A stretch of DNA of 64,000 nt from Channallabes apus (taxonomy: Eukaryota; Chordata; Actinopteri; Siluriformes; Clariidae). Both the position numbers and the translations under genes were made by a program. Below the pieces are notes generated by a model. The model ran no database searches and was not told the DNA's origin. It saw only the letters and a list, made by a program, of their open reading frames with translations. This document shows, one piece after another, positions 5,331 through 61,330 of the stretch. The stretch is taken from the NCBI GenBank assembly GCA_030522415.1, contig CM060112.1:5596501-5660500 (forward strand), in the 5' to 3' direction. The number at the start of each line of letters is the position of its first letter. Positions within the stretch are counted from its first letter, which is position 1.

Positions 5331-6019
5331 GATGGCGCCGGTGAGGTCGGCTGCCGTCACGACTGCTCCGACCACCTTTTCTTTGTTTTTGTTCTTTAAG
5401 TTAGTTTTCAGTGTTTTAAAATCGGCAAAATCATCACCATTGAGTACATTAGGTATGATAGAGACACTCTTGTTTCTATTCGTATACAATGTACTCACAA
5501 TTCGACGTTTTTAACTCCGGATCCGAGCTGGCCGAGTGAGATCCTGAGGGAGAACAATGGGCGCAACGCGAAGCGGCGGCCCCGAGGAAAACGAGCCGGC
5601 GTGAGGAACAGGCTCAGAGCCCGTGCACACCGCACACCTCTGCCTAGTATCCTGCTCGCCAACGTCCAGTCACTGGAGAACAAACTCAATGACCTCAGGG
5701 CCAGGATAAAGTTCCAGAGAGACATTCGGGACTGCAGTCTGCAATCCTCTGCTTCACCGAGACATGGCTGAATCCAGCGGTGCCAGACCACGCCATACAA
5801 CCAGCCGAGTTCATCTCGGTTCACCGCATGGACAGGACGCGGGACTCGAGAAAGTCAAGAGGAGGCGGCGTGTGTTTAATGGTGAACAACAGCTGGTGCA
5901 ACAGCGCGAGCGTTGTTCCTCTCACACGCTCCTGCACACCAAATCTGGAACTACTGTCCATCATGTGTCGCCCTTTTTATCTTCCACGGGAGTTCACATC
6001 GGTCATAATCAGTGCCGTT
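5331..6019 (+). pseudogene. LINE 5' region with endonuclease start (broken)
   Basis: Matches the start of the LINE at 47063: a short frame beginning MAPVRSAAVTTAPTTFSLF, then the N-terminal part of an APE-type endonuclease (LANVQSLENKL, CFTETWLNPAVPDHA, SRGGGVCLMVNNSW). A small indel near 5740 breaks the endonuclease frame, and the copy stops abruptly at 6019 against an inverted L2 piece. The 3' half is missing, which is unusual for a LINE and points to rearrangement. Confidence 0.7.
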
Positions 6020-6028
6020 TAAAAAAAG

Positions 6029-12384: not shown

Positions 12385-12424
12385 ATGAAGATCCTCCTCA
12401 TCTTTACCCTCTGCCTGATCTCAG
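12385..12424 (+). CDS. Gene A exon 1: signal peptide
   Basis: Short exon starting at the ATG after a conserved leader. It reads [14 protein letters not shown], a hydrophobic signal peptide, and ends in phase 1 at a strong GTAAAG donor. The matching exon of gene B differs by one residue, which supports both the start and the donor. It acts in ER targeting of a type I membrane protein. Confidence 0.85.
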
Positions 12425-21400: not shown

Positions 21401-21547
21401 TGTTTTAAATGATTTATTGCATTGTGTTTCTTCCAGAGTATTCACCACCAGTATATACCATGATCATTGTGTGTGCGAGTGTGCTGATGCTTCTGATTGG
21501 AATATTATTTTTCATTGCAACTGTCCATATGAGACACAAGATGCAAG

Positions 21548-21594
<47 letters not shown>

Positions 21595-22004
21595 AGGCTC
21601 TGTTTCCCACATTCTAAAAACCCAGATACCGTCTTATGTGGAATACAGAGACCTTCACCTGTCACAAGGTACATTAAATACATTGACGCAACCCTTGAGA
21701 TCATTATTTGATTTACAAGACCACAAGAAAGGAGCACTAGTACTCCGACATGTCTGTCCATCCTTTAACCTTCCACACTACAGCCATGCCAAGCCATTTT
21801 CCTTATAGATACTGTAGATACAGTTTGTCCCTTCATTTGCTACCCATATACCACAGCTACTAGCATTCACATGCCTGGAGCATATGTGCTACTCCATTAC
21901 CATTGCTAGTTCCGTGTCATCATCTACAGGCTAGTGAGCCTTTAATTAACTATGGCTTTAATTGCGGTGTGAACTTTCATTAATTTTTGCAACACAAACC
22001 GGCA

Positions 22005-22042
<38 letters not shown>

Positions 22043-25000: not shown

Positions 25001-28000
25001 GAAGAAACCTTGAGAGGAACCGGACTCAACAGGGAACCCATCCTCATTTGGGTGAAACAGGATGCAGGAGTTGATCTGCATTTATGATATAACAGTTGAT
25101 GTTAATTGATGTTAATATGGAGTCCAGGTAGTTTATTGGAGACTCGTAGGTAGACTTGTAGGAAATTCCATTCTTGAACTATCGAGCAACTGCAGCCAAG
25201 TCAAGTCCTCAGAGCAACAGCTGTCAACACCAGTCGAGGCCAGAACCATCTTCATAGTAGAGTGAAATCCCCACCAGACGCATCCCAAAGAAACACACGG
25301 GGCATCTGTAAATATGATCTCATAATGCTGCAAATTCAACAAAAGCATATTTTCAGTTCTTTACAACCTATCTTCTTTGTCTTTCGGCTGTTCCCTTTCA
25401 GGGGTCGCCACAGCGAATCATCTGCCTCCATCTAACCCTATCCTCTGCATCCTCTTCTCTCACACCAACTAACTTCATGTCCTCTCTCACTGCATCCATA
25501 AATCTTCTCTTTGGTCTTCCTCTAGACCTCCTGCCTGGCAGTTCCAACCTCAGCATCCTTCTACCGATATATTCACACTCTCTCCTCTGAACATGTCCAA
25601 ACCACCTCAATCTGGCCTCTCTGACTTTATCTCCAAAACATCTAACATGGGTTGTCCCTCTGATGAACTCATTCCTGATCCTATCCATCCTTGTCACTCC
25701 CAAAGAGAACCTCAACATCTTCAGCTCTGCTACCTCCAGCTCTGCCTCCTGTCTTTTCTTCAGTGCCACTGTCTCTAAGCCATAGAGCATCGCTGGTCTC
25801 AGTTCTTTACAACCTATAAAATGTTTTAACTCTGTTGTGCATAATAATTTGGAACAGTGCGTTTTTATTTATTTATTTATAAATATTATCATTAGGAGGT
25901 TTGTTCAATACAATTTGAATTATACCCTAATGGTTGATGACTTGAAAATTATACTGACTGTCATTTGCATTGACTAATTACTGTATGAAAATCAGAGAAA
26001 GATATCATTTGCGTAATAATTTGTAACACAGTGTATGTATTTATTATATGCCTCTTCTGTATCTCAAAAGTATCTCAAACCAGAATTTATTAATGGCAGC
26101 AATTAAATAGATTTTGTAGTATTTCATAGCATGCCACGCCATTCCAATGGGATTCATGACAGGAGATTTGGCGGGTGCCTTCACCCAGTTAATTCCCTCT
26201 TCACCGATCACTGTTTCCTGCAGCAGTGTGCTTCGGGTCATTGTCCTGGAAAAAACGGTGATGAATACCGAAGGTTTCCTTAATTTTTGGGCAGCGATTC
26301 CATTTATAATCGCCTCTTCGAAAAAAAGACCGTGCATACACACCTACTGTACAGTATGAGACGCGCGGACACAGACAATCTCTCCGTACAGATACACCAT
26401 GCAGGCAACAACTGAACAACAGGTCATAAATACACCTGGCCATAAATAAAAATGAATATTTAGGCCTAAAAAAGGTGCTTTAAAATTCATCTAAAATTCA
26501 TTCGTCGGCGTGTGTAAACCCTCAGCCTTAACAAAAGGCAGCGCTTTGATCAAAAGGATGATAAATGCTTGCGATTTATTGATAAAAATTCCGGCAGCGC
26601 GTATGTAAATCCAATTCATTCGTAAGTCTAACAAATTGAGTCTTATACACCTTTGACACGAATATTTTACAATGTAAAGAATAAAAATAAACACACATAC
26701 ACAAGTTTGGTGTTTTGGTTCCTCATTATACTCTCGCCTCCAAATAACAAGAACAATCATGGTGACATGGTGGGGATCCTGTGACAATGCTACATAGTGT
26801 TTACTGTGCGCTTGAACGGAAACCATTTTGTCTCAGAGCTGTTTCAAAATGTGAACTCTGTCTTGTTGAGGATTTTCCGAAACTAGGATAATTCACAATC
26901 AGGACAGCTTTACAGGACAAACATTTTCTATCATGTTGTCCTGGACTGATTCATTGAAACCAGTGAGGCCGACTCATTTCTCCCATAGGATGAAATATAC
27001 CAAATATACAATATACATCACTTTTGACATGTTATACATTCACTTACACATTAAAAATATTGCATATAATTGCAAATATTGGTATCTGTGTCTACGTTTT
27101 TGTACAATATATTTGAGCAACTTCTGCAATTTGTTTGCATCTACGAATGTCTGTTCATATTTGCAGAAAATGTAACTCAATGGTTCATAAGTCAGGGACG
27201 TACTGTATTTTAGTGTTGCAGTGTTAAAGTGAAACAAAAAGATGCCTATGGATATATTTATTCCAGTTGGAGCAACTGACATTTGAATATTCACCCAAAC
27301 AAACAAAATAAAATAGGGCCTACCTTACCCCAAGCAGCTCCATCTACAGCCAAAAGTTTTGAGAAGGACACACATTTTACACAACGTCTACTGTCTCAGT
27401 TTTTATCTTATGTTATGAAGAGTGATCAGATGAATTGAAATTAATTGAAATCAAAGTCCCCCTTTGCCATGAAAATAAACTTAATCCTCTGCCCCCAAAA
27501 ATAAATTTCTATTGCGTTTCAGCCCTGCCTGTTTAGGAACAGCTGACATAATGCCAGCGATTCTCTCGTTAACACAGGTGAGAGTGTTGACAAGCTCAAG
27601 GCTGGAGATTACTCTGTCATGCTGATTGAGTTAGCATAGAAGCTTTAACACCATCTCTCCACAGACACTAGTACTAAAGCTCTCCTCTCTTGGATTAAGC
27701 CCTACAGTGGGGAACTGGGTCCTCGACTTCCTGACCAACAGGTCTCAAACTGTCAGGATCTACGATACCATCTCCTCCTCCATCACTCTCAGCACAGGCT
27801 CGCCTCAAGGGTGCGTGCTGAGCCCCCTCCTGTTCACTCTATTGAGTGTATGACTGCATAGCGAGACACTCCAGCTGCCATATAGTCAAATTCGCAGATG
27901 ACACAGCAGTAGTGGGATGCATCATTAACAACGATGAATCCTATTACAGAGAGGAGGTGGAACAACTGGTACAGTGGTGTAGGGATAACAACCTGTGCAT

Positions 28001-29512
28001 CAATGTAAATAAGACCAAAGAGATGGTGGTGGACTTCAGGAAGGAGAAGCAAACTCCTCTCCCCCTACACATTGATGGAGCCCTGCAGAGAGTAGTTAAG
28101 GCTGCACAGAGGACAGTGGGGAGCAGGCTCCCCTCTATCACTGAACTGTACACTGCAAGATGCAGAGGAAGAGCTCTCCGCATTATTAAGGACTCCACTC
28201 ACCCTGCACACAGTCTATTTCAACCTCTTCCCTCAGGCAGAAGGCTGAGGAGCCTTCAGTGCAAGACCACCAGGCTCAAAAACAGCTTTTACCCTGAGGC
28301 AATTAGACTGCTGAACTCTAGTCATGCTCTGTAGGTCCTCTCCCATCAAACACAATCATACACAATCACAAGCTGCTAACAATAGATAGTATTTAATTAC
28401 AATATATCTCTATATTTTTAAGTGCAATATATAATCCTATGGTGCAATACATTTATAACTCTATAAGCCCAATGTACAAAGTGTAAAATATAGTTTCTGT
28501 AAATGTGCAATACACTATATATAGCTTACATCTTAATTCTTGCATAATATATCTGACTGCTCTTATTTATATTAATGTATTTACACATACACATCCTCAT
28601 ATTTACCACCCTGTTATTATGTGGCTTATACGGGACCTGGGTAATAATTTCGTACCATAACATGGAAGTGTGCTGGTATGACAATAAAGAATCCTTGAAT
28701 CCTTGAATCACATAACCTCGTGCTTTTGCATCAACGATATTCGCATAAAACGAAGTTGATGGTACAAAAATACGGGAAGAATAAGGCTTACTCCAAGAAC
28801 GAGTTAATTCGTTGTGGAGGTCGCCAAAAAAAGGGAGAGAGCGGCGTTGTGGCTCCATTTCCTGGCCACCCGACCGGAATCTGTCGTCTTATTTAGAATG
28901 TTTGGGGAAGGCTTGCTCCTGCTGCCAATCAATGTACAGCCGTTCGACTGCACGCATTATGACTTCAAGCAGCTCCTCAAATTCTCTATCCTCCTTAGAG
29001 GAGCATTCTGAGGTAGCTACTTCCATTTCTACAGAAACAAGAGAGCGAGTCTCTTCTACACACTCACAAGAAGCACCGGAGCGCACTTGTGAAGTGGAAG
29101 TAGAGACTTTCCGATCGGAAGAGAGGGCGAGACAAAGGAGAGGAGAATCCATCTCGTGGGCCTCGGCCAGATCTGCTTGTGAGTCCCAGGATCTGCTTGT
29201 GAGCCCCACTTTCACGCAGCATCGAGTGTAGCCTTTGAAAGGAAACAACAAAACACACAAAATATTAATAAATACAAATTAACACAAAAAATATGTAAAA
29301 TGCAACAGTCATGCAGAAGGCATGGAATAAAGTGAATAAGTGAGGGTTCCTGCTTACATTTGTATTACCAAAGCTTAAAATAAATAGATTCTAGACTCAT
29401 TTAACTGAAATGATATTGTATTATATTAAAATAATAATATTAATATTAATATTAAAATAGTAATATTAACAATAATATTAATACTACTACTACTAACAAG
29501 AACAACAACAAC

Positions 29513-29546
<34 letters not shown>

Positions 29547-31048
29547 TGAATGAATGAAAGCAATGAAAGTGCTACAAGATTAAACTCTGTACAAATATTT
29601 TAATGTCCCAGTAAATACTGACATGTTTTTCCCCTTTTTGGCTAATCCTGGGTGGCACAGTGGCGTATTGGTTAGCCTTGTCTCCTTGTACCTCCATGGT
29701 CTGGGTTTGATTCCCGGGGAGGTTCGATTCCCACCTCTACAGTATGTGCATGGAGTTTGCATGTTCTCCCTGTGCTTTGTGGACAGATTGGGCTAATTGG
29801 CATTCCTACTGTAAATTGACTGTTTTGTGTGTCTTTGTGTGCATTGCCTTGCCTTGTGCCCTAAATCTCCTTGGATAGGCTCCAGGCCCCCAGCCATCCT
29901 GGATAAAGCAGTATAGATGATGAGTGAATGGATAATACTGTCACTTACTCTGTAATGCTCCAGCTTGTGTGTAATTTTTCTGCATAATTAAACTCGGTAC
30001 AAATATTTTAATGTCAATTTATTTTATTATATTATTGATCAGTTCAGCACTATTAAGATTGTTTAAATTATTATCGCTTCTTTTGCCTCATGCAGCTGTA
30101 AATGTGAAATATTATGTGAAAAATATTATGTGAATATTACGTCTTCCACAGACAGTTGTTTTGAATATAGAAGAATAATAAAATGGAAATGTTGCTTGAC
30201 AGCTTGTGAAGATCAGTGATTGCATGTCTTACACTCGATGCATGAGAGTTGTCAGCTTATATTATGAGAAAGAATCTGAAATAAACACAACAGATTTGTC
30301 TGCATTTGTTGGAGCTTTTAACATTAGTCTTACTTTCTCTTTTTAAACATACCCGTTTTTAGTCAATGTGGCACAGCCTCATCGACTACATTTTCCACCA
30401 GTTGTGACTGCTCTATATGAACACAAACTACATTTCAATCTGAAATTGGTATCAATTTAGATATCTTTTTACTGTTGGGCAAAAAGGGTGGGGGAACTGA
30501 CACGTTTGCTTCCCAAGTGGACATAACTGCATTGCTTGAATTGAATTGAATTGAATTGAATTGAATGGGACACACAGATACTAGGACACAAAAAAAGCAC
30601 AGAGGTGCAGAGAATAAAAAATACAAAAATGTTGTACATTCATGCATCATTCATCATGTCAAAAGAGTCATATACAGTATGTGATGTGTTTAATTATGTT
30701 CTCTTTATTTTCCTCATGTCATTTTAGTGACACAGTATTCCAGAGAGGTGAGTCCACCCTGACATCAATAGTACTTATTCACACGATTTGTGCTGGTAAT
30801 TTATTTGACAAAACATTTCTAGACTGTCACACTTCTAAAATGTTTTTCTCCCCATACAATTCCAGACTAATGGAGACAATGAAAGTGAATCAGAGCCTAT
30901 TTATGAGATTATGAGCCCCATCATCTTCAAGTTAGAAGCAGTGCAAGAGAATCGCAATGACGAAGCCGACCAGCCAGATTCAGTCCCCCAGAATCTACAA
31001 CACTCGATTAGACTGCACTGCTCTTCATCAGAAAGCCTGCAAGAATAA
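12385..31048 (+). CDS. Gene A: CD300/pIgR-like three-Ig-domain receptor (7 coding exons)
   Basis: Predicted exons: 12385-12424, 12518-12823, 19122-19445, 19686-20027, 21437-21547, 30728-30747 and 30866-31048, joining to 441 codons plus TAA without a stop. All junctions are GT-AG; phases are 1,1,1,1,1,0. Protein: signal peptide (about residues 1-14), three V-type Ig domains (about 14-115, 116-223, 224-337), a transmembrane helix without charged residues (about 346-368) and a tail of about 70 residues. Domains 1 and 3 show the extra cysteine pair and the DSGxYWC/DTGxYYC signature typical of CD300, CMRF35-like and pIgR-like V domains. The tail has YEIM at Tyr394, which fits YxxM (PI3K-type), but its ITIM-like unit has Pro422 in place of tyrosine. 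There is no stalk exon as in gene B. Family assignment is solid; ligand and signalling are inferred. No expression data exist here, and exon 6 (20 nt) is supported mainly by phase and homology. Confidence 0.82.
12518..12823 (+). CDS. Gene A exon 2: Ig V domain 1
   Basis: Exon between a TTGTTAG acceptor and a GTGAGT donor, phase 1 at both ends. It encodes about 102 residues: B-strand cysteine (IKCEY), an extra cysteine pair (YFC...NC) typical of CD300/pIgR domains, RFSLYHD, and DTGMYYCAV with the F-strand cysteine. N-glycosylation sequons are visible (NYT, NNS, NKS). It is nearly the same as the gene B exon at 45435-45740. Confidence 0.88.
13493..13533 (-). repeat. SINE 3' tail fragment
   Basis: Reverse of the conserved tail (AAGTCGCTCTGGATAAGAGC) found in the SINE copies at 41001, 44771 and 62399. 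No tRNA-like head here. Confidence 0.55.
14417..14690. mobile_element. Palindromic fold-back MITE, copy 1
   Basis: The ends CTCACCTATGCGGTT and AACCGCATAGGTGAG are inverted repeats, and internal arms (CACGG/CCGTG-rich, with ATTAAACATGTTTAAT inside) extend the fold. Surrounding TAATA/TATTA bases could be a short AT target. A second copy lies at 32100-32341. It resembles Harbinger-type MITEs in style, but the family is not proven. Confidence 0.6.
15361..15465 (+). repeat. Direct repeat flanking gypsy element, left copy
   Basis: 105 bases nearly identical to 18349-18453, starting GTTTAGTTTGTCTTATTACA and ending TCAATTCACTGTT. The two lie either side of the IN-RT region, so they may be LTR remnants. 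Confidence 0.6.
15715..16718 (+). pseudogene. Gypsy integrase (broken)
   Basis: Pre-integrase region, then an HHCC zinc-binding domain ([10 protein letters not shown] ... CRMCQTCQ, about 15967-16090), then the core: [19 protein letters not shown] with the first Asp and [12 protein letters not shown] with the second. The third catalytic residue, expected as Glu in the GAxER motif, is Lys (GAVKRFHQ, codon 16453-16455). There is a stop at 16276-16278, a T-rich insertion at about 16312 and frame changes after 16560. The integrase cannot be active. Confidence 0.78.
17037..18348 (+). pseudogene. Gypsy reverse transcriptase and RNase H (broken)
   Basis: Fragments in two frames: [12 protein letters not shown], the RT entry segment ([31 protein letters not shown], stop at 17472), [17 protein letters not shown], the polymerase box YLDD (17755-17766), [35 protein letters not shown], then the start of RNase H ([16 protein letters not shown], stop at 18238, then [20 protein letters not shown]). 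RNase H is cut short. The signature is Ty3/gypsy. Confidence 0.85.
18349..18453 (+). repeat. Direct repeat flanking gypsy element, right copy
   Basis: Pairs with 15361-15465 (a few substitutions). It joins the RNase H frame directly, so it is either the start of a 3' LTR or a deletion junction. Confidence 0.6.
18460..18640 (+). repeat. tRNA-SINE body fragment
   Basis: CAGTCCAAAGACATGCAG, TTAGGCTAATTG and GGATTGGCACCC match the middle of the SINEs at 40074, 46389 and 59360; the tRNA-like head is missing. Confidence 0.55.
19122..19445 (+). CDS. Gene A exon 3: Ig V domain 2
   Basis: Exon with a TTTTAACAG acceptor and GTGAGT donor, phase 1 at both ends, encoding about 108 residues. The canonical Ig cysteines are present (IKCKYE and DTGTYACAV), but the second cysteine pair is missing: the KYFC position is KYFY. 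The same holds for the paralogue at 50747-51067, so domain 2 lost that disulfide before the duplication. It follows a 6.3-kb intron that holds a decayed gypsy-like element. Confidence 0.87.
19686..20027 (+). CDS. Gene A exon 4: Ig V domain 3
   Basis: Exon from a GTACAG acceptor to ACTA|GTAAG, phase 1 at both ends, about 114 residues. It carries the most typical CD300/CMRF35-like signature: SCKYPES, FLCK...AAC extra pair, [22 protein letters not shown]. It is very close to gene B exon 4, with substitutions mainly in the middle (for example LYTV versus SYIV). Confidence 0.9.
20073..21010 (-). pseudogene. Tc1-like transposon remnant
   Basis: Starts next to a TA with the GTGAAAAAGTATTTGCCCCC end also found at 41558. 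Antisense stretches match the intact transposase at 41771-42793, for example the part for CTTTAGATGTTCTGGGG, TAATTTTGGTAGGCGTG and TTCACTACTGTTCCATG, up to the start codon region near 20990. It is interrupted and the right end is gone. It lies in intron 4 of gene A, roughly where gene B has its stalk exon. Confidence 0.7.
21437..21547 (+). CDS. Gene A exon 5: transmembrane segment
   Basis: Exon after a TTTCTTCCAG acceptor. It encodes a short KYSPPVYT linker and a hydrophobic helix, then HMRHKMQ at the cytoplasmic side. No acidic or basic residue lies within the helix, so pairing with DAP12-type adaptors is not suggested. The donor is GTACAC and runs directly into a (CA)n microsatellite (21550-21591). 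Reading through the donor would give a Thr/His-repeat tail. Confidence 0.82.
21550..21591. repeat. (CA)n at the gene A transmembrane-exon donor
   Basis: About 20 CA units beginning within the 5' splice site GTACAC of exon 5. Length variation could influence splicing. Confidence 0.9.
22008..22040. repeat. (AAT)n microsatellite
   Basis: Pure AAT/TAA units within a 1.8-kb stretch (21.6-23.4 kb) of gene A intron 5 with no recognised gene. Confidence 0.85.
22425..22510 (+). mobile_element. Tc1-like MITE end
   Basis: CACTATCGTTCAAAAGTTTGG followed by GTGATTTATTTTCTACATTC matches the left end of the complete MITE at 55179-55486; the rest is missing. Confidence 0.55.
22510..23350. repeat. Dispersed repeat shared with 35.7-36.0 kb
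   Basis: Segments such as AAGGACTTTATCTAAAAG, TTTCCAATGCTGAAGCAAAC and CAGTTACTGTAATCC recur near 35757-35960. No coding sequence; family unknown. Confidence 0.45.
23880..24760 (+). pseudogene. Tc1/mariner-type transposase remnant
   Basis: Sense fragments: a helix-turn-helix-like part ([32 protein letters not shown]) and, past stops, a degraded catalytic half with [15 protein letters not shown] and [21 protein letters not shown] segments (24440-24600). Frameshifts break the middle. The third acidic residue is visible in PIENLW. It is a different family from the element at 41558. Confidence 0.65.
24816..25318 (-). mobile_element. L2-like LINE 3' UTR, inverted
   Basis: TTTTATTTGTATAGCGCTTT, AAAGCAGCTTTACACAATC and the CCCTGAGATGG block match 4690-4930. 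Only the 3' UTR remains. Confidence 0.75.
25353..25817 (-). mobile_element. 5'-truncated LINE insertion with 19-bp target duplication
   Basis: The 19-bp TCAGTTCTTTACAACCTAT stands at 25353-25371 and again at 25799-25817. Between them is the 3' end of a non-LTR element on the minus strand, open for about 130 codons (25398-25790): [50 protein letters not shown] and [12 protein letters not shown], the basic C-terminus common in fish LINE ORF2 fragments. The clade was not settled (RTE-, L1- or R1-like). Catalytic domains are absent. Confidence 0.8.
25835..26445 (-). pseudogene. Tc1-like transposase remnant with terminal motifs
   Basis: Minus-strand pieces: [18 protein letters not shown] (second catalytic Asp), then in another frame [22 protein letters not shown], where the usual PDLNPIE is PVMNPIG, so the third acidic residue is lost. 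Two copies of a CATAATAATTTGGAACA-like motif (25847, 26009) resemble inner and outer repeats of the element end. Confidence 0.65.
27662..28716 (+). pseudogene. CR1-like LINE (Rex1/Babar-type?), truncated
   Basis: Starts inside RT ([32 protein letters not shown]), has a stop and frame change at about 27850, then [16 protein letters not shown] and [15 protein letters not shown]. After IDGA (about 28080) it jumps to [17 protein letters not shown], so about 80 residues are deleted. The C-terminus ends at TAG 28332 and the 3' end is a GACAATAAAGAATCCTTGAA tail with repeated AATCCTTG. Same general group as 47063-50395 but another subfamily. Confidence 0.78.
28717..29260 (-). pseudogene. DIRS-like retroelement gag-type ORF remnant
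   Basis: One minus-strand frame with a single TAA (about 28889): a Ser/Glu-rich part, [21 protein letters not shown], then [10 protein letters not shown] and [42 protein letters not shown]. This pattern is familiar from the first ORF of fish DIRS/tyrosine-recombinase retroelements (memory-based, not searched). No RT or recombinase is nearby. Confidence 0.5.
29511..29546. repeat. (AAT)n microsatellite
   Basis: ATA/AAT triplets in a longer AT-rich stretch from 29410. Confidence 0.85.
29650..29930 (+). repeat. tRNA-derived SINE, copy with Pol III boxes
   Basis: Head GGTGGCACAGTGGCGTATTGG with an A-box-like and a GGGTTTGATTCCC B-box-like motif; the body has GGCTAATTGGC and the end GGATAAAGCAGTATAGATGA. 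Same family as 40074-40388 in reverse. Confidence 0.65.
30533..30567. repeat. (TTGAA)n short tandem repeat
   Basis: Five to six TTGAA units; they resemble L2 tail repeats but no element body is attached. Confidence 0.6.
30728..30747 (+). CDS. Gene A exon 6: juxtamembrane mini-exon
   Basis: A 20-nt exon between CATTTTAG and GTGAGT. With the carried-over G it encodes VTQYSRE and converts phase 1 to phase 0, exactly as the 29-nt exon of gene B (54298-54326) does. It lies 9.2 kb after the transmembrane exon because of transposon insertions. The assignment rests on phase, position and homology of the next exon. Confidence 0.6.
30866..31048 (+). CDS. Gene A exon 7: cytoplasmic tail with YxxM and dead ITIM unit
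   Basis: Final exon after an ATTCCAG acceptor, 60 codons plus TAA. It starts [11 protein letters not shown], matching TNGDYENDSN in gene B, which fixes the homology. Then comes PIYEIM (Tyr394). This is not a standard ITIM because the -2 residue is Pro, but it fits YxxM. Further on, [10 protein letters not shown] lines up with one gene B repeat unit (NQSDSVYQSL), with codon CCC at 30986-30988 in place of TAC. No AATAAA is seen before a MITE begins at about 31126. Confidence 0.75.
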   Translation, partial: TNGDNESESEPIYEIMSPIIFKLEAVQENRNDEADQPDSVPQNLQHSIRLHCSSSESLQE

Positions 31049-45301: not shown

Positions 45302-45341
45302 ATGAAGATCCTCCTCATCTTCATCCTCTGCCTGATCTCAG
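45302..45341 (+). CDS. Gene B exon 1: signal peptide
   Basis: Encodes MKILLIFILCLISG and ends in phase 1 at GTAAAG. Leader and 5' flank match gene A over roughly 100 bases, so start and promoter were duplicated together. Confidence 0.86.
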
Positions 45342-48300
45342 GTAAAGAAATGCACTTCAGAATAATCCTCACTCTCAGCAGCAGTGTTACATGAAGGAAG
45401 GTTTTGCTCAGATGGATGTTTGGTGTTTTGTTAGATGGAGGAGATTCCAAGGAAGTAACAGGATATTCAGGAGGAGGAGTCCTTATCAAGTGCGAGTATC
45501 ATACAAACTACACCAAGGATGATAAATATTTCTGTAATGGTTCTGGACCAAACTGTTCTGACCAAATAAAGACAAAAAATAATTCTGGAAGGTTCTCACT
45601 GTTTGATGACAAAACATCTGCAGAGATCAAGGTAATGATGAGAGAGCTCAATGTACAGGACACTGGGACGTATTACTGTGCGGTTGGTAGAAATCCATGG
45701 ACAAACATTTCCACACCAGTAGAACTGAAGATAAAGGAAGGTGAGTTTCAGACCACACCCATGTGAAATTGTTAAGTATATTAAATCCTAGCATTTCAAA
45801 GCATACTGAAGTGTGTTTGCAGTCAGACTAATGATTAGTATACTTGAATGTTACTATTTTGGAACAACCCATTTTGTACTAACTGCATTTAAGTTGTAAC
45901 TAAATTATACAAAATATCATTTTGAAGTATATTAAACATAGTTTTATGTCATGAAAAAACACTTCAGGTAAAAACAGCTTTAAGTATACATAGTACACTT
46001 AAAGTATATGGCTGTGTGTATTAACAACACACAGCCATATAGGAAAAAGTATTCATAGTGGAGCATTTTTTCCGCTCACATGGAAGTTGTCGTGAACGGG
46101 AGACTGAGTATGAAAAACATTGCAGAACAATTCCTCCCCATACCCGTCCCATTTCTCCGATCTTACACCTGATGCCTACTTGTGGAGAATGTTAAAGGAA
46201 AGTGTGTTTAACTTTAAAGATTCACCAAAAAATGCGTCTGCATCACGCGAACATTCATTAATATTCTAACTATTCTATTCTATTCTATTGTAGGCTGAAA
46301 TAGTGGCAGATAAGGCTGCCACATAACAATTTAAGCAAGTGTAGCTTTGTGATGTTGACCACACACAAGAGACAGTTCAAATATACTTCATTCATTCATT
46401 CATCTTCTTTACCACTTTATCCTGTATTTAGGGTCGCGGGGACCTGGAGTCTATTCCAGGAGACTCTGGGCACGAGGCAGGGTACACCCTGGACAGCATG
46501 TCAATCCATCGCAGAGCACACACACACTCATTCACACAATATGGTCAATGTGGGAACGCCAAACCTGCATATCTTTGGACTGTGGGAGGAAACCAGAGTA
46601 CCCGGAGAAAACCCACGAAGCACGGGGAGAACATACAAATTCCATGTACACAGAGGCGGGAATCGAGCCTGGCCGGGAATCGAACCCAGACCCTTGAGGT
46701 GCAAAGCGACAGTGCTAACCACTACACCACCGTGCCGCCTTGAATATACTTATTCATGCTTATATTTTAGTGCAGTTAATCTCTCTTGCCTGCGCTCAAA
46801 CTTATTTTTGCACAGAAACTCACTTTTGCGTATTCAAGTTCAATTTTGCATGTTTGAACTAAATTTCTTGTGTGCGCTCAACAAAGCACAAAGCTACAAT
46901 TGTGTGAACTGCAGCAGCCTTATAGTTCTGCCACAATTCCAATCAACCAGAGACTAGAGTAAAGTCAATACCAGTCAGTCAGAAACTGGAAGAGTGCACA
47001 TTCTCACTGCCTGCACAAGAAAGCACAGCAACACACATATACGAGATGTATATGAGATCGACAAGATGGCGCCGGTGAGGTTGGCTGCCGTCACGACTGC
47101 TCCGACCACCTTTTCTTTGTTTTTGTTCTTTAAGTTAGTTTTCAGGGTTTTACAATCGGCAAAATCACCACCATTGAGTACATTAGGTACGATAGAGACA
47201 CTCTTGTTTCTATTGGTATACAATGTACTCACAATTCGACGTTTTTAACTCCGGATCTGAGCTGGCCGAGTGAGATCCTGAGGGAGAACAATGGACGCGA
47301 CACGAAGTGACAGCCCCGAGGGAAACGAGCTGGCGTGAGGAACCGGCTGAGAGCCCGTGCATACCGCACACCTCTGCCCAGCATCCTGCTCGCCAATGTC
47401 CAGTCACTGGAGAACAAACTCGATGACCTCAGGGCCAGGATAAAGTTCCAGAGAGACATTCGGGACTGCAACCTTCTCTGCTTCACCGAGACATGGCTGA
47501 ACCCAGCGGTGCCAGACCACGCCATACAACCAACCGAGTTCTTCTCGGTTCACCGCATGGACAGGACGCGGGACTCGGGGAAGTCAAGAGGAGGCGGCGT
47601 GTGTTTAATGGTGAACAACAGCTGGTGCAACAGGGCGAGCGTTGTTCCTCTTACACGCTCCTGCACACCAAATCTAGAACTACTGTCCATCATGTGTTGC
47701 CCTTTTTACTGTATCTTCCACGGGAGTTCACATCGGTCATAATCAGTGCCATTTACATCCCACCACAAGCGGACACTGAAACTGCCTTATGCGAGCTGCA
47801 TGAGGCGCTCACACAGCACCAGACACAACACCGGGGACTTTAATAGTGCCAACACTAGATCACTGTTACACAACGGTCAAGGACGGCTACAAGGTGCAAT
47901 CTCGTCCAGCATTTGGTAAATCCGACCACGCCGCCATCTTCCTCATGCCAAAATATAAACAAAGGCTGAAACAGGAAGTTTCCGTTCAGAGGGAGGTCGC
48001 GCGCTGGACGGACCAATCAGTGGCCGCGTTACAGGATGCACTCGATGACGCAGACTGGGACATGTTCAGAAACAGCTTCGATGATGACGTCAGCGTGTTT
48101 ACGGAAGCGGTTGTGTGATTTATTGGGAAGCTAGTGGACGATACTGTGGAGAAAAAGACTATCAGAACGTTTCCCAACCAGAAGCTGTGGGTGGATAAAA
48201 CCATCCGCGACGCTCTGAGATCTCGCACCGCTGCCTACAACACGGGACTTGCGTCGGGGACCATGGAACCATACAAGGCTGCGTCATACAACGTCCGGAA

Positions 48301-51300
48301 GGCGGTGATAGAGGCGAAGCAGCGCTATGGGAGAAAACTAGAGTCACAGCTTCAGCAGAGTGACTCTAAGAGCCTGTGGCAGGGACTAAGGACAATAACG
48401 GACTATAAAGCACCAACATCCGGTATGACGAACGCAGACGCGACTCTGGCAGACGAGCTCAACACATTCTACGCTTGCTTCGAGGCTGCAGCTAAAGACG
48501 CTAGCGATGCTAATGCTAACGGCGCTAATGCTAACGGCGCTAATGCTAATGGCGCTAACGGCTGCAGACAGAAGGACACTGCCAGCACCGGGAACGCGCT
48601 CATCATCTCCGAGCACGACGTGAGGAGAGCCTTCAAGAGAGTGAACACCAGGAAAGCAGCAGGACCAGACGGCATCTCAGGCCGTATTCTTAGATCCTGC
48701 GCAGACCAGCTAGCACCTGTGTTCACTGAGATATTCAACATCTCTTTATCTCAGTCGGTGATCCCCACGTGCTTCAAAGAGTCCATCATTGTTCCTGTCC
48801 CGAAGAAACCTCATCCTGCCTCTCTTAATGACTATCGCCCTGTAGCCCTCACCTCGGTAGTGATGAAGTGCTTTGAACGCCTTATCAGAGACTTCATCAT
48901 TTCTTTACTACCCGACACACTGGACCCACTACAGTTTGCATACCGTCAGAACCGCTCCACAGACGATGTAATCTCTCATCTCCTCCACACATCACTCACT
49001 CACCTGGACACTAGGAAAGGGAATTATGTTATAATGCTCTTCATCGACTACAGCTCTGCATTTAATACCATAATTCCCTCCACACTCACCACCAAGCTGG
49101 AGCACCTGGGACTCAGCTCATCTATATGTCAGTGGATCTCCAATTTTCTGACTGGCAGACCACAGGCAGTAAGAATGGGCGGACATGTCTCAGCTACACT
49201 CACTCTCAGCACTGGAGCCCCCCAGGGTTGTGTTCTGAGCCCCCTGCTTTACTCTTTGTACACCCACGACTGCGTGGCCACTACCAACTCCACATCCATC
49301 ATCAAGTTTGCTGACGACACCGTCGTGACTGATCACCAACAATGATGAGTCGGACTACCTAGAGGAGATTGGAAATCTGGAGAACTGGTGCCAGAGGAAC
49401 AATCTCCTCCTGAACGTCAGTAAGACAAAGGAGCTGATAGTGGACTTTTGTACAAAGCAGGAGAGGAACTACCAGACCCATGTCATCAACAGGAGTCCAG
49501 TGGAGAGAGTGGACAGCTTCAGATACCTCGGTGTTCACATTACTCAGGACCTGTCATGGTCCTGTCACATCAACACCGTGGTGAAAAAAGCCCGGCAGCG
49601 TCTGTACCACCTCAGACGCTTGAGAGACTTTAGACTGCCCTCCAAGGTGCTCAGGAACTTCTACTCCTGCACCATAGAGAGCATCCTGACGGGAAACATC
49701 ACAACCTGGTTCGGGAACAGCACCATGCAGGACAGACAAGCTCTACAGAGGGTGGTGCGATCAGCCGAGCGCATCATCCGCACTGAGCTCCCTGACCTGC
49801 ACTCGATCTACGGCAAGCGGTGCTGGACTAAGGCCAGGAAGATCATGAAGGACCTCAGTCATCCCAGTAATGGACTGTTCTCTTTGTTGCGGTCTGGGAA
49901 GCGATTCCGCTCCCTAAAGGCCAACACAGAGAGGCTGAGGAGGAGCTTCTTCCCGCAGGCGATAAGGTCTCTCAATCATAATCACACCTCCACACAGGAC
50001 TAATAACATCTTTTTAAGCTCACAACACTGACTGGACAATCATGGACACATTCATACACACTTGCACTAAATATTTATACATCTGGACAATTGCACATGT
50101 CACTTTCACTAGTCACCTTTCATGCATATTTGCACAACCACGGTCACTTTAAATTCTATATATATATACTCCCCCCCCCTATATTTCTATATTTTGCAAT
50201 ATTTTATTATGCCCTTACTGTACAGTTAATTTTACTAGTTAAATTTATTTCTTTAGTATTTCCTTTTATTGATATTTATTTTACGTACAAGCTTTTATTT
50301 TCTTTTTAAGGTCACTGGCGGTCGTGTAAGCATTTCACTGCATATTATACTGTGTATGACTGTGTATGTGACAAATAAAATTTGAATTTGATTTACAAAA
50401 CATGTACAGTGACCAACATCTTGCAGGTTGTAACACTATCCAGTTCTCCATGGGTGAATTCCACCATAGACCACACACCACTTCATGCTTATTAGTAGTC
50501 ATTTTATACTTTCCAATCTGTAAGCTTAGCCTTTTATGGAGTTTTGCAGGTGTCATGAAATGCAAAATCAGCTGTCTGCTTATTTTCCAGAGATTACCAT
50601 TGATCAACACATGACTCCAATCAAGAATAGTGTTTCCCAAATCTTTATCAAAATCTATGTTACACATAGTTGTTCTTCGAAAATCTATACTGAAATATTC
50701 ATAAATGATGCTCATAATTATCATGTTTGTCAATTGCGCTTAACAGAAGTGTCGGTCTCTAGAGAAGTGACTGCGTATGCTGGGACAAGAAGCAACATCA
50801 AGTGCAAATATGAGAATGAATATAAGTTCAATCCTAAATCTTTCTATAAGATCGACGCAGATCAGTGGCATTTTAATCACATGACAACAAAAAAGAGAGA
50901 ATGGGCACATGAAGACAGATTCTCAATTCATGACAACAGAAGTGCAGAATTCTTCAGTGTGTTTATCAGAGAGCTGAGTGTGGATGACACTGGAACATAC
51001 GCGTGTGCTGTTGGTGTGTCTGATGAAATAGAGATCTTCACAATAGTGAAGCTGAATGTTACAGAAGGTGAGAAACTAATACACAAACATGTGATCCTGA
51101 ACTTTATACCTGAACATATACTTGTTAAACTCTAACTAATCAGAGTAACATACTGATGCATTTCATATTAGCTTTGTTATAGGATGATGTGGATAGGTTT
51201 GTGGTCTTTATTTGTGTTTGCTTCATGAGTTTAACAGTAGAACAGAATGTATTATATTCACACAGTTACTGTACCATGCTACTGTCTCAAGAATGTGATG

Positions 51301-53352
51301 TAATGAATGTATTATATATAAACTGATGTGATTGCTTGTGATGTACAGACCTGCCCAATCAGGAGCCCATTAAACAGACCATCTATGTAGGTGAAGATCT
51401 GAATGTCAGCTGTAAATACCCAGAATCCCACAGGAAGGACGCCAAGTTTCTCTGCAAGAGGCCTAAGATTGCTGCCTGTTCTTATATTGTCACAGTTAAA
51501 GAAAATAGAAAACATGTGGATACCTGGAATCTTTCCCTGTATGATGACCGAGAAAAACAAATTTTCAATGCGAGATTTAATAATGTGACTGAGCAGGACT
51601 CTGGTGAATACTGGTGTGGAGCTGAAGTCAACTGGACATCTGAATATGGATACAAGGTTTATTTCACACAGATCATCCTGACAGTTACTAGTAAGTCTGT
51701 ATGGGTATTCCATACTATATGAGAGTCTCTAATTTAATATCATTTTGAAAGCTCGAAAGCTGTAGTGTAGCCACTCCACTTCTTAGCATGTTTGTGGGAG
51801 TGAGAGGAAAACCCTGAGGAATTGCACAAGGTCAGTGGGAGAGCAACAGATTGACTGTAACAGACTGTAACAAATATTTTAGTTTTATTTTTTGCGTTAG
51901 TAGGTCTGTATGTAAAAAAAAATTATGATGACAAGTACTATACTGTATTTATGGCCACATTTTTTCTGTGTCAGTGCTGCTATCTGTCTCTGTCTCTCTC
52001 TCTTAACAGATAACAGAAAGCTCAGTATCATTGCTAAATTCTTACACATTTAAGAATACTTCTTGGGCTCTTAAGAATTAAAAAAATAATTATTATTATT
52101 ACTATTATTAATAATTAATGATTCAATGCTATGCTGGATTTAATTCATCATACGTACTAACTAAATACGCATGTGCTTTAGATGTCTCTCTTTCAACCTT
52201 AGTGCCAACACAATATTCATCACCATCTTTACCATCTTCACCATCAACATCATCATGGTCTACCCACTTCAGAACATCTTCTGAAAGAGGTGATTGTGTA
52301 CTATTGTGGCAGCAGAAATATTTTTACAACTGACTGTTTCTGACTGTCTTTCAATCGTTTTGCGTTTAGCTAGGGTCAGTGTCACTATAATACCTGTAGA
52401 CTACAGAGGTTACACAGGCAGTCCAACTCCTCTAGTCCAATCTTTAGTCCATCCATTGCCAGAAGGTTTGCTATTCTCCCAGTACAATCTGATGAGCATG
52501 TAGGAGATTCCAGGACACAGGCATTTACTCTAAGAGAGCAGGACAGCATGTCAGCATGAATGATTTGGTGGTGGGTCAGGTCCTATCATAGTGCACTAGG
52601 TTCTCGGTTTCTCCTGGTGCTTGACAATGTCCATTGTCCATTGTGCAGAGGTGGAAAGTAACGAATTACATTTACTCGCGTTACTGTAATTGAGTAGCTT
52701 TTTTGTGTATTTCTACTTTTTAAAGTAGTTTTAAAAATCTGTAATTTTACTTTTACTTAAGTACGTTTTGTTTGAAGTATTGTAATTCGCTACATTTTAA
52801 ATCATATTCGCTACTGAGTAAAAAATAAATGAATAAAAATGCTAAAATAATGAAAATGTTATGCTTTGTATAAATGCTCCGTTGCGCCGCGCGTGTGTGT
52901 ATCATGTGCTGGTCGCGCGCCGCTCCAGACTCCACTCCAGGTTTTCTGACATCGGCATCACCTGACCTTCCACACGGTCGCTTCCGCCCTGAGTGACGTC
53001 ATCGACTAGCGCGACCATGTACAGTATAACCCGGAGAGACGCGGGAAAGATGAAAGAGGTTGTGATTTTGGCGTTTTGATATTTGGTTGTGTATTCTGGT
53101 TTTGACTTTTTGCCTCCAATTGACTTTGATTATTGCTTTGTCCCTTTGGTTTGGTTGGTCTTTGTATATATTTGTAGATAATTTCACTGTTTTTGGTTTA
53201 GGGAGTCCGGGAAGGTACCTGTATTTTTGTTTCTGGGGTTTTTTTGTTGTTGTTTCTTTTTGCAGGTAATCTACCTACTAAATATACAGTAAATACCATT
53301 TTGTTTGTTATTTTGGCCTGGGTCCATCCTGAATCTGATCCTCCTCCTCCTG

Positions 53353-53395
<43 letters not shown>

Positions 53396-54774
53396 CAAAC
53401 CTCATTATTTCATCAGTTAATGATTGGATCTAGTTCTTTCTGCCATATACCACCATTTCCATACAGTTTAAAATAGAACCCTGAACCATTCTTTTGCTGT
53501 TTGGCCCTAGACTGGGACGTAACACCATATTTAAGTGACCACTTTATTATGCAAAGGTGTTCCTTCAGTTAAAAACAACTAGTTTGAGATTTATATCTGC
53601 TCATCTTTTTTGAACTATGCTAGAATGCCTCATCCCACCCCCGCTGTGTGTGTTTTTTTTTTATATTTAACAAAAAAAAAAAAAAAAGCAGAGCCAGATC
53701 AATATACAATCGACACCCACAGCAAACATTTAAAAACAAACAATAATCTGTTAATATAAGAGTGAACATGGAAACACCCAAGGGCAAAACAATTCAGCAA
53801 AAGAATCACCCCCACTGTTAAAAAAATTAAAATAAAAAAGTAACTCGGTAACTTTTACTCTGAGTAAATTTTTTAATGAGCTACTTTTTACTTTTATTTG
53901 AGTAGATTTTTATAAGAGTAACTTTACTTGTACTTAAGTGAAATTTCACTGAAGTAACAGTACTTGTACTTGAGTACAACATTTTATTACTCTTTCCACC
54001 TCTGCCATTGTGGTATGCGTTCTCAAAGTGCTCATTAATTAATTTTTTTTTTTTTTACATAAATATATAATGCTAAATGTGCCTGACTGACCTTTCCTAG
54101 GGTTTCCAGTTTCCACTGTGATCACTGTGTCTGTGAGTCTGCTGGTGCTTCTGATTGGAATCATATTCCTCATTGTGACGCTACGTAAAAGACACAAAAT
54201 GCAGGGTACTGCCTCCCATACAGTCATACATGTGGCGTCTGCATTTGTAAAGGTGAAAGTATTAATTACTGTTTTTGTCACTCTCATCTCTCTGCAGGCC
54301 GAAAAACAATCACACGACCCAGAGACGTGAGTATAAAGTTAAAGCAAAACTACTCACTCAAATAATTTACTCCTTTATCAATTCGGACAAACCATTTGAT
54401 GTCCACTAAAACCTTACATTTTCTTATAATTCCAGACAAATGGAGATTATGAAAATGACTCAAATGTGCTTAATTTCCAGTCAAGTCAAATGACCAACCA
54501 ATCAGATTCAGTCTACCAAAGTCTGAACCCCAAGACCAACCAATCAGATTCAGTCTACCAAAGTCTGAACCCCAAGACCAACCAATCAGATTCAGTCTAC
54601 CAAAGTCTGAACCCCAAGACCAACCAATCAGATTCAGTCTACCAAAGTCTGAACCCCAAGACCAACCAATCAGATTCAGTCTACCAAAGTCTAAACCCCA
54701 ACCAATCAGATTCAGTCTACCAAAGTCTAAACCCCAACCAATCAGATTCAGTCTACCAAATCCTTAAATGTTAA
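45302..54774 (+). CDS. Gene B: CD300/pIgR-like receptor with seven tandem ITIMs (8 coding exons)
   Basis: Predicted exons: 45302-45341, 45435-45740, 50747-51067, 51349-51690, 52203-52289, 54101-54205, 54298-54326 and 54436-54774, joining to 522 codons plus TAA. All junctions are GT-AG; phase 1 up to the mini-exon, then phase 0. Order: signal peptide, three V-type Ig domains (about 14-115, 116-222, 223-336), Ser/Thr/Pro stalk (337-365), uncharged transmembrane helix (about 370-393), basic juxtamembrane segment (RKRHKMQGRK), then a tail with seven SVYQ(S/I)L motifs at Tyr437, 451, 465, 479, 493, 505 and 517. Known ITIM biology predicts recruitment of SHP-1/SHP-2-type phosphatases and an inhibitory leukocyte receptor. 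Tyr415 in DYEND also fits a YxN (Grb2-type) site. No frame break is seen. The next paralogue upstream is gene A. The family is certain; inhibitory function is inferred. Confidence 0.88.
45435..45740 (+). CDS. Gene B exon 2: Ig V domain 1
   Basis: Same length (306 nt), phase and splice sites as gene A exon 2. Canonical cysteines in IKCEY and DTGTYYCAV, plus the extra pair in YFCNGSGPNC. Differences from gene A cluster around the C'-to-E region (NGSGPNCSDQ, FDDKTSAEIKV), which may affect ligand contact (inference). Five possible sequons (NYT, NGS, NCS, NNS, NIS). Confidence 0.9.
46389..46738 (-). repeat. tRNA-derived SINE in gene B intron 2
   Basis: Same family as 40074-40388, minus strand: GGCGGCACGGTGGTGTAGTGG head, GGGTTCGATTCCCGGCC B-box region, and a tail of ATGAATGA units. 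Confidence 0.75.
47335..50003 (+). pseudogene. LINE ORF2: endonuclease and reverse transcriptase (broken)
   Basis: Endonuclease start (LLANVQSLENKLDDL, CFTETWLNPAVPDHA, SRGGGVCLMVNNSW) to about 47800, with frame changes and loss of the rest of the domain before SRPAFGKSDHAAIFL. Then one frame from 47846 with TGA at 48116-48118, open again to 49345: [74 protein letters not shown] and the catalytic FADDTVV. A 1-base frameshift at about 49330 leads to the C-terminus (LNVSKTKELIVDF, VDSFRYLGVHI, ending HNHTSTQD, TAA 50001-50003). Few lesions, so the insertion is fairly young. Confidence 0.85.
48503..48563 (+). repeat. Asn-Ala-Asn-Gly microrepeat inside LINE ORF2
   Basis: In-frame repeats of GCTAATGCTAACGGC-like units give ANANGANANGANANGANG between the endonuclease and RT domains. 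A slippage product not seen in the other copies here. Confidence 0.75.
50747..51067 (+). CDS. Gene B exon 3: Ig V domain 2
   Basis: Acceptor CTTAACAG, donor GTGAGA, phase 1 at both ends, about 107 residues. Like gene A domain 2 it keeps only the canonical disulfide (KCKYE and TYACAV); the site of the extra cysteine reads SFYKI. It lies 5 kb after exon 2 because a LINE occupies the intron. Confidence 0.88.
51349..51690 (+). CDS. Gene B exon 4: Ig V domain 3
   Basis: Acceptor TGTACAG, donor GTAAGT, 342 nt as in gene A. Typical CD300/pIgR-like V domain: SCKYPES, FLCK...[25 protein letters not shown]. It is spaced about 280 bases from exon 3, the same compact arrangement as in gene A (about 240 bases). 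Confidence 0.9.
52203..52289 (+). CDS. Gene B exon 5: Ser/Thr/Pro-rich stalk
   Basis: An 87-nt open exon between TTCAACCTTAG and a GTGATT donor, phase 1 at both ends, so it can be included or skipped without changing frame. It encodes PTQYSSPSLPSSPSTSS followed by WSTHFRTSSER, a mucin-like stalk likely to be O-glycosylated. No equivalent was found in gene A. The weak donor makes alternative inclusion possible. Confidence 0.68.
52646..54004. mobile_element. hAT-like element in gene B intron 5
   Basis: Ends CAGAGGTGGAAAG at left and, inward, at right; the 8-bp CCATTGTG stands on both sides (52638-52645 and 54005-54012), perfect. Sub-terminal stretches repeat GTTACTGTAAT/TGAGTA-type motifs. It contains a (GT)n tract at 53354-53390 and A-rich runs, but no transposase. 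Confidence 0.85.
53354..53390. repeat. (GT)n microsatellite
   Basis: About 18 GT units inside the hAT-like element. Confidence 0.9.
54101..54205 (+). CDS. Gene B exon 6: transmembrane segment
   Basis: Acceptor CTTTCCTAG, donor GTACTG. It encodes GFPVSTVITV, a Leu/Ile/Val-rich helix, then LRKRHKMQ as a basic stop-transfer. The helix has no charged residue, consistent with signalling through its own tail rather than through an adaptor. Confidence 0.87.
54298..54326 (+). CDS. Gene B exon 7: juxtamembrane mini-exon
   Basis: A 29-nt exon between CTCTGCAG and GTGAGT. With the carried-over G it encodes GRKTITRPRD and shifts the phase from 1 to 0. The basic composition suits the inner membrane face. 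Confidence 0.78.
54436..54774 (+). CDS. Gene B exon 8: tail with seven tandem ITIMs
   Basis: Final exon after ATTCCAG: 112 codons plus TAA at 54772-54774. After TNGDYENDSNVLNFQSSQM come seven repeat units of NQSDSVYQSLNPKT, the last two spaced 12 rather than 14 residues apart; the last reads SVYQIL and ends in KC. Each unit has the ITIM pattern S-x-Y-x-x-L. The early units look identical at DNA level (42 bp), a sign of recent expansion or homogenisation. Confidence 0.92.
   Translation, partial: TNGDYENDSNVLNFQSSQMTNQSDSVYQSLNPKTNQSDSVYQSLNPKTNQSDSVYQSLNPKTNQSDSVYQSLNPKTNQSDSVYQSLNPNQSDSVYQSLNPNQSDSVYQILKC
54493..54765 (+). repeat. In-frame ITIM minisatellite
   Basis: Tandem array in the last exon of gene B: about five 42-bp units, then 36-bp units lacking the KT codons. 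All periods are multiples of three, so copy number can change without breaking the frame. Early units differ from later ones by a synonymous CTG/CTA change and the 6-bp deletion. Confidence 0.93.
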
Positions 54775-54934
54775 ACAGACCAACTGGACTCAGGCTAAAT
54801 ATACTTGCACAGAACAGGGCTAAATTTGCCTGAGCAACTGCCTATTTGCCCGCTTTGGCTGAGCTGCCCCTAGAGAGTCAAGAACACCTTTTTGCTGTTG
54901 TGTCTGCATAAAAATATCTAGCCTATAATCAGTA

Positions 54935-54940
54935 AATAAA
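54935..54940 (+). terminator. Candidate polyadenylation signal of gene B
   Basis: AATAAA about 160 bases after the gene B stop codon, the first canonical signal seen downstream. Use is not shown. Confidence 0.45.
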
Positions 54941-60130: not shown

Positions 60131-61330
60131 ACGTCTTGAGTCTACTTTTGAACTGAGAAACCATGTCTGCTCCCCGAACACTGTCTGGAAGGCTATTCCA
60201 AAGCGTTGGAGCTAAATATGAAAATGCCCTACCCCCTTTTGTAGATTTTGAAATTCTGGGAACTACCAGAAGTCCGGAGCTTTGTGATCTTAAGGCGCGT
60301 GGTGGATTGTAGCGCCTCAGAAGACTGGTTAGATATGTGGGAGCTAAACCATTTAAGGCCTTGTATGTAAGTAATACTATTTTGTAATTTATTCTAAACT
60401 GAACAGGTAGCCAGTGCAGGGATGATAATATTGGGGTTATATGATCATATTTTCTGGATCTAGTGAGAACCCTGGCAGCTGCATTTTGGATTAACTGAAG
60501 CTTGTTTATTGAGGATGCAGGACAACCACCTAGTAATGCATTACAATAGTCCAGTCTGGAGGTCATGAATGCATGAACTAGTTTTTCTGCATCAGATACG
60601 GATAAGATGTTCCTAAGTTTAGCAATATTTCGAAGATGGAAAAAGGCTGTTATTGTGATATTTGAAATGTGAAGTTACTGTCTAATATTACGCCCAGGTC
60701 TTTTACTGCTGAGCTGGTAGTAACAGTACATCCTTCTAAACGCAGGCTGAATTGTGAAAGCTGTTGTGTGCTGGTTTTTGGGCCAATAAGTAATATCTCT
60801 GTCTTATCTGAATTTAATAAAAGAAAGTTATTGGTCATCCAATCTTTTATGTCCTGGACACACTCAGTTAATCTAGACAACTTAGGTATTTCGTCTGGTT
60901 TATATAAGATATAAATTTATAATAATTATATCATTATAAAATAGATATATAATTGGGTATCATCAGCATAACAATGGAAATTAAGCCCATGTCTTCTAAT
61001 GATGTTACCCAAGGGAAGCATGTATATTGAGAACAACAGAGGTCCTAAAACTGACCCTTGTGGGACCCCATATTTCACTGGCATTACTCCAGACGGTTCT
61101 CCATTTAGATCTACAAAATGGTAGCGATCAGACAGGTAAGATCTAAACCATTTTAATGCCTGTCCCTGAATACCTATATAATTTTGTAAGCGATCTATGA
61201 GAATATTATGATCTATAGTGTCGAATGCAGCACTAAGATCGAGCAGGACTAGCAATGAGATGCAGCCTTGGTCTGAAGCTAAAAACAAGTCATTTGTAAT
61301 CTTAACTAGTGCAGTTTCTGTGCTATGAAG
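60131..61330 (-). pseudogene. L2-like LINE ORF2, antisense, truncated
   Basis: Minus strand, right to left: [51 protein letters not shown] (kept here, deleted in the 8.1-10.5 kb copy), YADDTQLY, a 50-base AT-rich insertion at about 60905-60950, then LLNSDKTEILLIGPK and [12 protein letters not shown] to SRLKTFH. The 3' UTR is missing; 5' truncated next to a short duplication of AGTGCAGTTTCTGTGCTATG (61309-61348). Confidence 0.82.

Follow-up and report, generated by a model that had tools for sequence, protein, structure and literature searches.

A receptor is generally assumed to have a set number and spacing of ITIMs. In the available part of PMC3031540, CD300 receptors are defined by a single V-type Ig domain. 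Channel catfish LITRs, as described in the accessible text of PMC4810170, are Ig receptors whose ITIM tails recruit SHP-1 and SHP-2; one of them, IpLITR 1.1b, has six tail tyrosines, with its two ITIM tyrosines, Y477 and Y499, lying 22 residues apart. The NILTs of Atlantic salmon are encoded by leader-Ig-stalk-TM-Cyt1-Cyt2 exons, with introns of phase 1 except for the last, which is of phase 0 and precedes the ITIM exon, and have four to five motifs by a looser rule that also accepts YxxI/V/L (accessible sections of PMC3022915, in which the word "repeat" does not occur).

The window analysed here, a 64-kb stretch (64,000 nucleotides) of Channallabes apus DNA, contains two tandem receptor genes, A and B, on the same strand (Table 1). 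Gene B (45302–54774) is predicted to consist of eight exons, whose GT-AG borders agree in phase, and to encode an intact protein of 522 aa. Its order is signal peptide, three V-type Ig domains, stalk, transmembrane segment, short cytoplasmic exon, and array exon; the predicted model thus has a type I membrane layout, in which signal peptide, Ig domains and transmembrane segment are spliced to the tail. The hydrophobic stretch of exon 6 contains no charged residues. An alternative signal-like reading at 50450–50519, just upstream of exon 3, would yield a two-Ig protein. Since the Ig domains of gene B, three in all, recur in unchanged order in four relatives (P0004, P0013, P0030 and P0038), and gene A shares that order, the three-Ig model starting at 45302 was preferred.

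Table 1. Features of the two receptor genes in the 64-kb window
Feature	Position	Strand	Basis or remark
Gene A	12385–31048 (12385–12424, 12518–12823, 19122–19445, 19686–20027, 21437–21547, 30728–30747, 30866–31048)	+	
Gene A last exon, with a single YEIM motif and a single decayed unit (QPDSVPQNL, Y replaced by P)	30866–31048	+	
Gene B exon 1, signal peptide MKILLIFILCLIS	45302–45341	+	donor gtaaag, phase 1; signal-like
Gene B exon 2, Ig domain 1 (V type)	45435–45740	+	GT-AG, phase 1-1; Pfam V-set E 5e-11 on exons 1–2 alone
Gene B exon 3, Ig domain 2 (V type)	50747–51067	+	gene model, Pfam
Gene B exon 4, Ig domain 3 (V type)	51349–51690	+	gene model, Pfam (three V-set stretches in whole protein)
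Gene B exon 5, Ser/Thr/Pro-rich stalk	52203–52289	+	inferred from splice sites and phase only
Gene B exon 6, transmembrane segment	54101–54205	+	gene model; 77% DNA match to gene A transmembrane exon
Gene B exon 7, short cytoplasmic exon, then phase 0 intron	54298–54326	+	gene model
Gene B exon 8, NGDYEND box, seven-ITIM array and stop codon	54436–54774	+	gene model, motif scan
Four identical 42-bp units (NQSDSVYQSLNPKT)	54496–54663	+	repeat comparison
Two identical 36-bp units (NQSDSVYQSLNP)	54664–54735	+	repeat comparison
Terminal partial unit, NQSDSVYQILKC + stop	54736–54774	+	repeat comparison, reading frame
AATAAA polyadenylation-signal-like hexamer	54935–54940	+	starts 161 bp past gene B stop

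The whole gene B protein matched Pfam V-set (E 2e-28) in three stretches. A PDB search, using Ig2–Ig3 plus stalk (without Ig1) as the query, returned pIgR as the best match (E 5e-27), followed by CMRF35-like molecule 6 (E 8e-14). In a protein search, the top six matches (of the best 120 listed out of 534) were siluriform proteins labelled pIgR-like. By these similarities, gene B is a three-Ig, pIgR-like receptor that most resembles siluriform proteins, and its V-type domains are nearest to those of pIgR and pIgR-like proteins, as is characteristic of the pIgR-like teleost multigene family. The original prediction had set gene B beside CD300-type receptors; strict CD300 membership was rejected, since three V-set domains were found where CD300 has one. 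An open reading frame at 49329–50003 resembles a fragment of a LINE reverse transcriptase.

The minisatellite in the last exon (54436–54774) encodes seven strict ITIMs, six SVYQSL and a seventh, SVYQIL; all seven lie in the predicted cytoplasmic tail and conform to S/I/V/L-x-Y-x-x-I/V/L. A 24-mer core occurs in seven exact copies, starting at 54496, 54538, 54580, 54622, 54664, 54700 and 54736, i.e., at spacings of 42, 42, 42, 42, 36 and 36 bp, and the corresponding Tyr-to-Tyr gaps are 14, 14, 14, 14, 12 and 12 residues. No match to the core with three or fewer mismatches was found outside the array anywhere in the 64-kb window, and the core did not occur in 100 shuffles of the sequence. TRF reported a period of 42, 6.7 copies and a score of 440 for the array, which is about 270–280 bp long. 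Units 1–4 are identical over 42 bp; units 5–6 are identical over 36 bp, lack the last 6 bp of the longer unit, and have CTA in place of CTG. The stop codon (54772–54774) is in frame with the array. The location, number and spacing of the motifs had thus all been predicted correctly, as judged by the core copies, the frame and the strict pattern. The proposal that the final exon of an Ig receptor contains a protein-coding minisatellite was borne out by the in-frame array and the predicted gene model, and the identity of units 1–4 supports the suggestion, originally made from their likeness, of a recent expansion. As by-products of the repeat, a second forward frame is open from 54474 to 54767 (+), and an antisense frame is open from 54470 to 54763 (-). 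In the +1 frame (from 54491, region 54490–54790), each of the six full units reads TNQIQSTKV followed by a stop.

Gene A, a tandem paralogue of gene B, is open throughout, encodes 441 residues, and has the same Ig arrangement as gene B; the DNA of the two genes is 86% identical across two blocks spanning the Ig exons. With few substitutions to count, dN/dS between the genes was 0.85 for Ig1, 0.36 for Ig2, 0.55 for Ig3 and 0.35 for the transmembrane segment, and gave no clear sign of positive selection. Given its intact frame and decayed tail, gene A is possibly an ITIM-poor partner of gene B. The window also contains long repeats of 90–94% identity (8390–9526 with 60132–61328, and 5328–6021 with 47062–47755), which probably represent transposable elements or belong to the tandem duplication.

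The array had been taken for a peculiarity of one gene, with an unusual count of seven ITIMs. Neither idea survived the protein searches: the same tail was found across receptor families, and its own group spans from 2 units up to 23 chained motifs. The possibility that the array is a purely local curiosity was therefore rejected. Several of the 120 gene B relatives listed (of 534 matches) end in gene B's unit. A search with the gene B tail alone matched 140 proteins (120 listed), and one with a clupeid tail matched 96 (all listed). At least three copies of the 14-residue unit were present in 127 of 240 proteins (239 fetched plus gene B), with 844 units in total; by a second rule, which called for at least three chained YxxPhi motifs, there were 126 tails, and the longest chains had 23 motifs (P0225, Acnodon) and 17 motifs (P0226, Pygocentrus). 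By source label, the array comes from Siluriformes, Characiformes, Gymnotiformes and Clupeiformes, plus one salmonid, Oncorhynchus nerka; a taxonomy look-up covered one species per order for these four, and the other array-bearing species are placed in their usual orders. The unit was absent from the cypriniform relatives P0048, P0104 and P0112, which were among the gene B matches listed. Each search scored only the nearly 8000 candidates that shared most words, so the absence of the array from a taxon means little.

One relative, P0004, combines three Ig domains in gene B's order (56%, 71% and 56% identity) with an array. The C-terminus of another, P0055 from Ictalurus furcatus, is exactly TNQIQSTKV, the peptide that gene B encodes in the shifted frame. 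A frame-shifted terminal unit was found by a strict pattern in 13 of 124 proteins with at least two units, including clupeids, which have their own version; 8 of the 13 end in T-x-V, which resembles a class I PDZ ligand. These protein ends point to one DNA-level unit common to other species, where a one-base shift would simply terminate the protein. In the predicted protein P0162 (Bagarius yarrelli, labelled pim-1), which is probably a gene-model fusion, the array tail is combined with a V-set domain and a pim-1-like kinase.

To measure conservation within the unit, each column was left out of its own detection, since the initial unit counts favoured Y and L by the detection rule. The tyrosine was the most conserved of the 14 positions (789 of 823), and position +3 was L, I, V or M in 810 of 840 cases (L alone in 744), which makes YxxL the conserved core. 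The glutamines at +1 (761/827) and -5 (731/833) were also well kept, while the top residue at the other ten positions had a frequency of 0.48–0.77. A strict ITIM was present in 517 and YxxPhi in 796 of the 844 units, counts in which detection favours Y and L; selection therefore appears to hold YxxPhi, rather than the strict ITIM, across the cassette. The consensus residue at Y-2 was S in all 20 chosen ostariophysan arrays, and A or P in 15 of 18 chosen clupeiform ones. Mean identity of units was 0.72 within an array versus 0.60 between arrays, as would be expected from continuing turnover.

Length change by whole units, which the original prediction had envisaged, was seen between related receptors. 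In pairs that are 88–92% alike, and represent different loci or species, unit counts were 7 versus 4 (Neoarius P0145 and P0189, 92% over 288 ectodomain residues), 12 versus 5 (Tachysurus P0098 and P0185, 88%), and 10 versus 5 (Alosa P0125 and P0194, 92% over 232, different species). The tails of P0145 and P0189 are nearly identical except for 40 residues (14 + 14 + 12), or three whole units, inside the array. Three further pairs, each from a single species, were compared as possible alleles. Clarias gariepinus P0137 and P0153 have 9 and 7 units, although their gene-model ends and possibly their loci differ: P0153 ends early, and keeps the array without a transmembrane segment while being near-identical to P0137, so that it is either a different form or an annotation error. 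Astyanax mexicanus P0161 and P0163 (98.7% over 150 ectodomain residues; possibly separate loci) have 9 units each, with a 28-residue difference inside the array and another at the end. Pygocentrus nattereri P0166 and P0218 (97.6% over 332; possibly separate loci) have 5 and 3 units, one of the models ending early. For the array of gene B itself, copy-number polymorphism is predicted.

The same tail is attached to different ectodomains. Six clupeid proteins, labelled CD22-like (two), sialoadhesin-like, siglec-like, JAM-B-like and nectin-1-like, matched the gene B tail with pairwise E-values of 1e-16 to 4e-38, while their match to the ectodomain gave only 0.004–0.05 (each E-value being for a single subject sequence). 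An A33-like piranha protein had a weak ectodomain match (22% identity, E 1e-13) and a strong tail match (70%, E 5e-26). A DYEN-like box, which could bind Grb2 (pYxN), was present upstream of the array in 76 of 126 tails (exactly DYEN in 65), compared to 0.9% of random ectodomain segments of equal length. Of 13 CD22-type proteins chosen from clupeids, four had the box. Since the box is missing from the other 50 of the 126 tails, the claim of a shared cassette leans mainly on the array.

For a comparison of clade and receptor family, 39 of the 240 proteins were chosen by source label, and 34 of them entered a label-shuffling test. Unit consensuses of clupeid CD300/pIgR-type proteins had a mean identity of 0.778 to those of clupeid CD22-type proteins and 0.642 to those of ostariophysan CD300/pIgR-type proteins. 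All five clupeid CD300/pIgR-type proteins were closer to the former, and the difference was reached in 1 of 10000 shuffles, a figure that is not a probability because the rows are related and hand-picked. Thus, within the 34 chosen proteins, unit sequence follows fish clade more than receptor family, which suggests exchange or homogenisation of tails among the receptor families of a clade. We propose, tentatively, that one minisatellite-encoded ITIM cassette exon, in which 14-residue units often follow a DYEN box, may have moved among unrelated Ig-receptor families inside fish clades through exon transfer or gene conversion. Its richness in repeats and its variable length would have been retained, allowing the strength of inhibition to evolve, and perhaps to vary from one individual to another, in steps of whole units. 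If true, a signalling tail would be evolving as a repeat common to receptor families, independently of the ligand-binding domains.

For gene B itself, we consider it probable that the protein is a pIgR-like receptor whose seven-ITIM tail is a multivalent phosphatase-docking inhibitory array that grows and shrinks by whole units. By analogy with catfish LITRs and salmon NILTs, a seven-unit tail should act as a multivalent phosphatase dock. In expressing cells, ligand binding or co-clustering would lead Src-family kinases to phosphorylate several of the evenly spaced tyrosines; the phosphotyrosines would recruit the SH2 phosphatases SHP-1 and SHP-2 with an avidity set by the number of units, and inhibition would then depend on copy-number dosage. 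Neighbouring tyrosines 12–14 residues apart may be too near for one tandem-SH2 phosphatase, while 24–28 residues would fit, and such an enzyme would more likely bridge alternate units. Because the units are 42 or 36 bp long, unequal exchange or slippage could alter the number of docking sites with the frame intact. The tail would itself be part of the cassette that several teleost Ig-receptor families appear to have in common. Besides this close spacing, three points count against the explanation: many units of the cassette keep YxxPhi without fitting the strict ITIM, with A or P at Y-2 in most of the chosen clupeiform consensuses; homogenisation of units can mimic selection; and one catfish LITR inhibits without requiring SHP-1 catalytic activity (accessible text of PMC4810170).

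Alternatively, the YQSL array could serve as a YxxPhi sorting signal for AP-2 endocytosis or transcytosis of a pIgR-related receptor, with little or no phosphatase signalling. The excess of YxxPhi over strict ITIMs in the unit counts, subject to the detection bias noted above, and the pIgR structures found as best matches of Ig2–Ig3 plus stalk both fit this idea. We nevertheless consider it unlikely: all seven gene B motifs also fit the strict ITIM, Q+1 and Q-5 are conserved too, and the need for an endocytosis signal, for which a single YxxPhi is usually enough, leaves the repeated expansion unexplained. It is also conceivable, though still less probable, that the last exon is simply minisatellite-prone, that copy number is without consequence, and that function depends on just one or two motifs. 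The wide range of unit counts among relatives would agree with such neutrality, as would the fact that gene A still reads through with one decayed unit. However, the tyrosine is kept in nearly every unit while most of the unit drifts, and both unit lengths preserve the frame.

The ITAM pattern is YxxL/I-x6-8-YxxL/I, and units 5–7, read as YxxL-x8-YxxL, might recruit Syk and activate, in which case the tail would be ITAM-like or mixed. Two of the six neighbouring pairs in gene B, those with the final gaps of 12, have the x8 spacing, but the other four gaps are 14 (x10), 14 is by far the commonest gap among the 129 relatives tabulated, and S at Y-2 is the ITIM form. We therefore regard an activating tail as unlikely, even though Syk recruitment to tandem ITIMs was proposed for a catfish LITR (accessible text of PMC4810170). 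Finally, identical units are of the sort that assemblers collapse, and the gene B array is known from one assembly, so its copy number could be wrong or the array itself a product of misassembly. This is very unlikely for an array of about 270–280 bp whose unit is placed likewise in proteins predicted for other species; in P0004, as in gene B, the last units are 12 residues long. Under the favoured interpretation, a phosphatase-docking array, the related receptors offer a natural copy-number series (2 to >20) of one motif, and the relation between docking-site number and inhibitory strength is therefore directly testable.

Among the open-licence papers listed, none was found to describe such ITIM arrays in its title or abstract opening; an earlier account elsewhere is possible. 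Four peptide strings of the unit did not occur in the open-licence papers searched.

Among known systems, the closest include the teleost pIgR-like proteins, mainly siluriform and annotated "polymeric immunoglobulin receptor-like", which share with gene B V-type Ig domains, one transmembrane segment and, in some, the array. They differ from it in the number and identity of units, and many listed members have other tyrosine tails; one of them, P0003, has 12 units and matches gene B at Ig1 and Ig3 separately only, with Ig2 falling on the stretch of Ig1. CD300/CMRF35-like receptors resemble gene B in their V-type Ig fold by sequence (CMRF35-like molecule 6 being the match noted above) and, in some, ITIM tails, but have one Ig domain versus three in gene B, whose seven tandem ITIMs come from one repeat. 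In exon order and phases, gene B is like the Atlantic salmon NILTs (accessible sections of PMC3022915). Its ITIM tyrosines are 14 or 12 residues apart compared to 22 in the available description of IpLITR 1.1b. Clupeid CD22-like, siglec-like, JAM-like and nectin-like proteins have gene B's 14-residue array (typical unit consensus TTQPDAVYQSLNPN) on ectodomains that are barely alike. We conclude that gene B adds a new receptor to a widespread group, and that the repeat tail of this group is a new form of the known multi-ITIM receptor.
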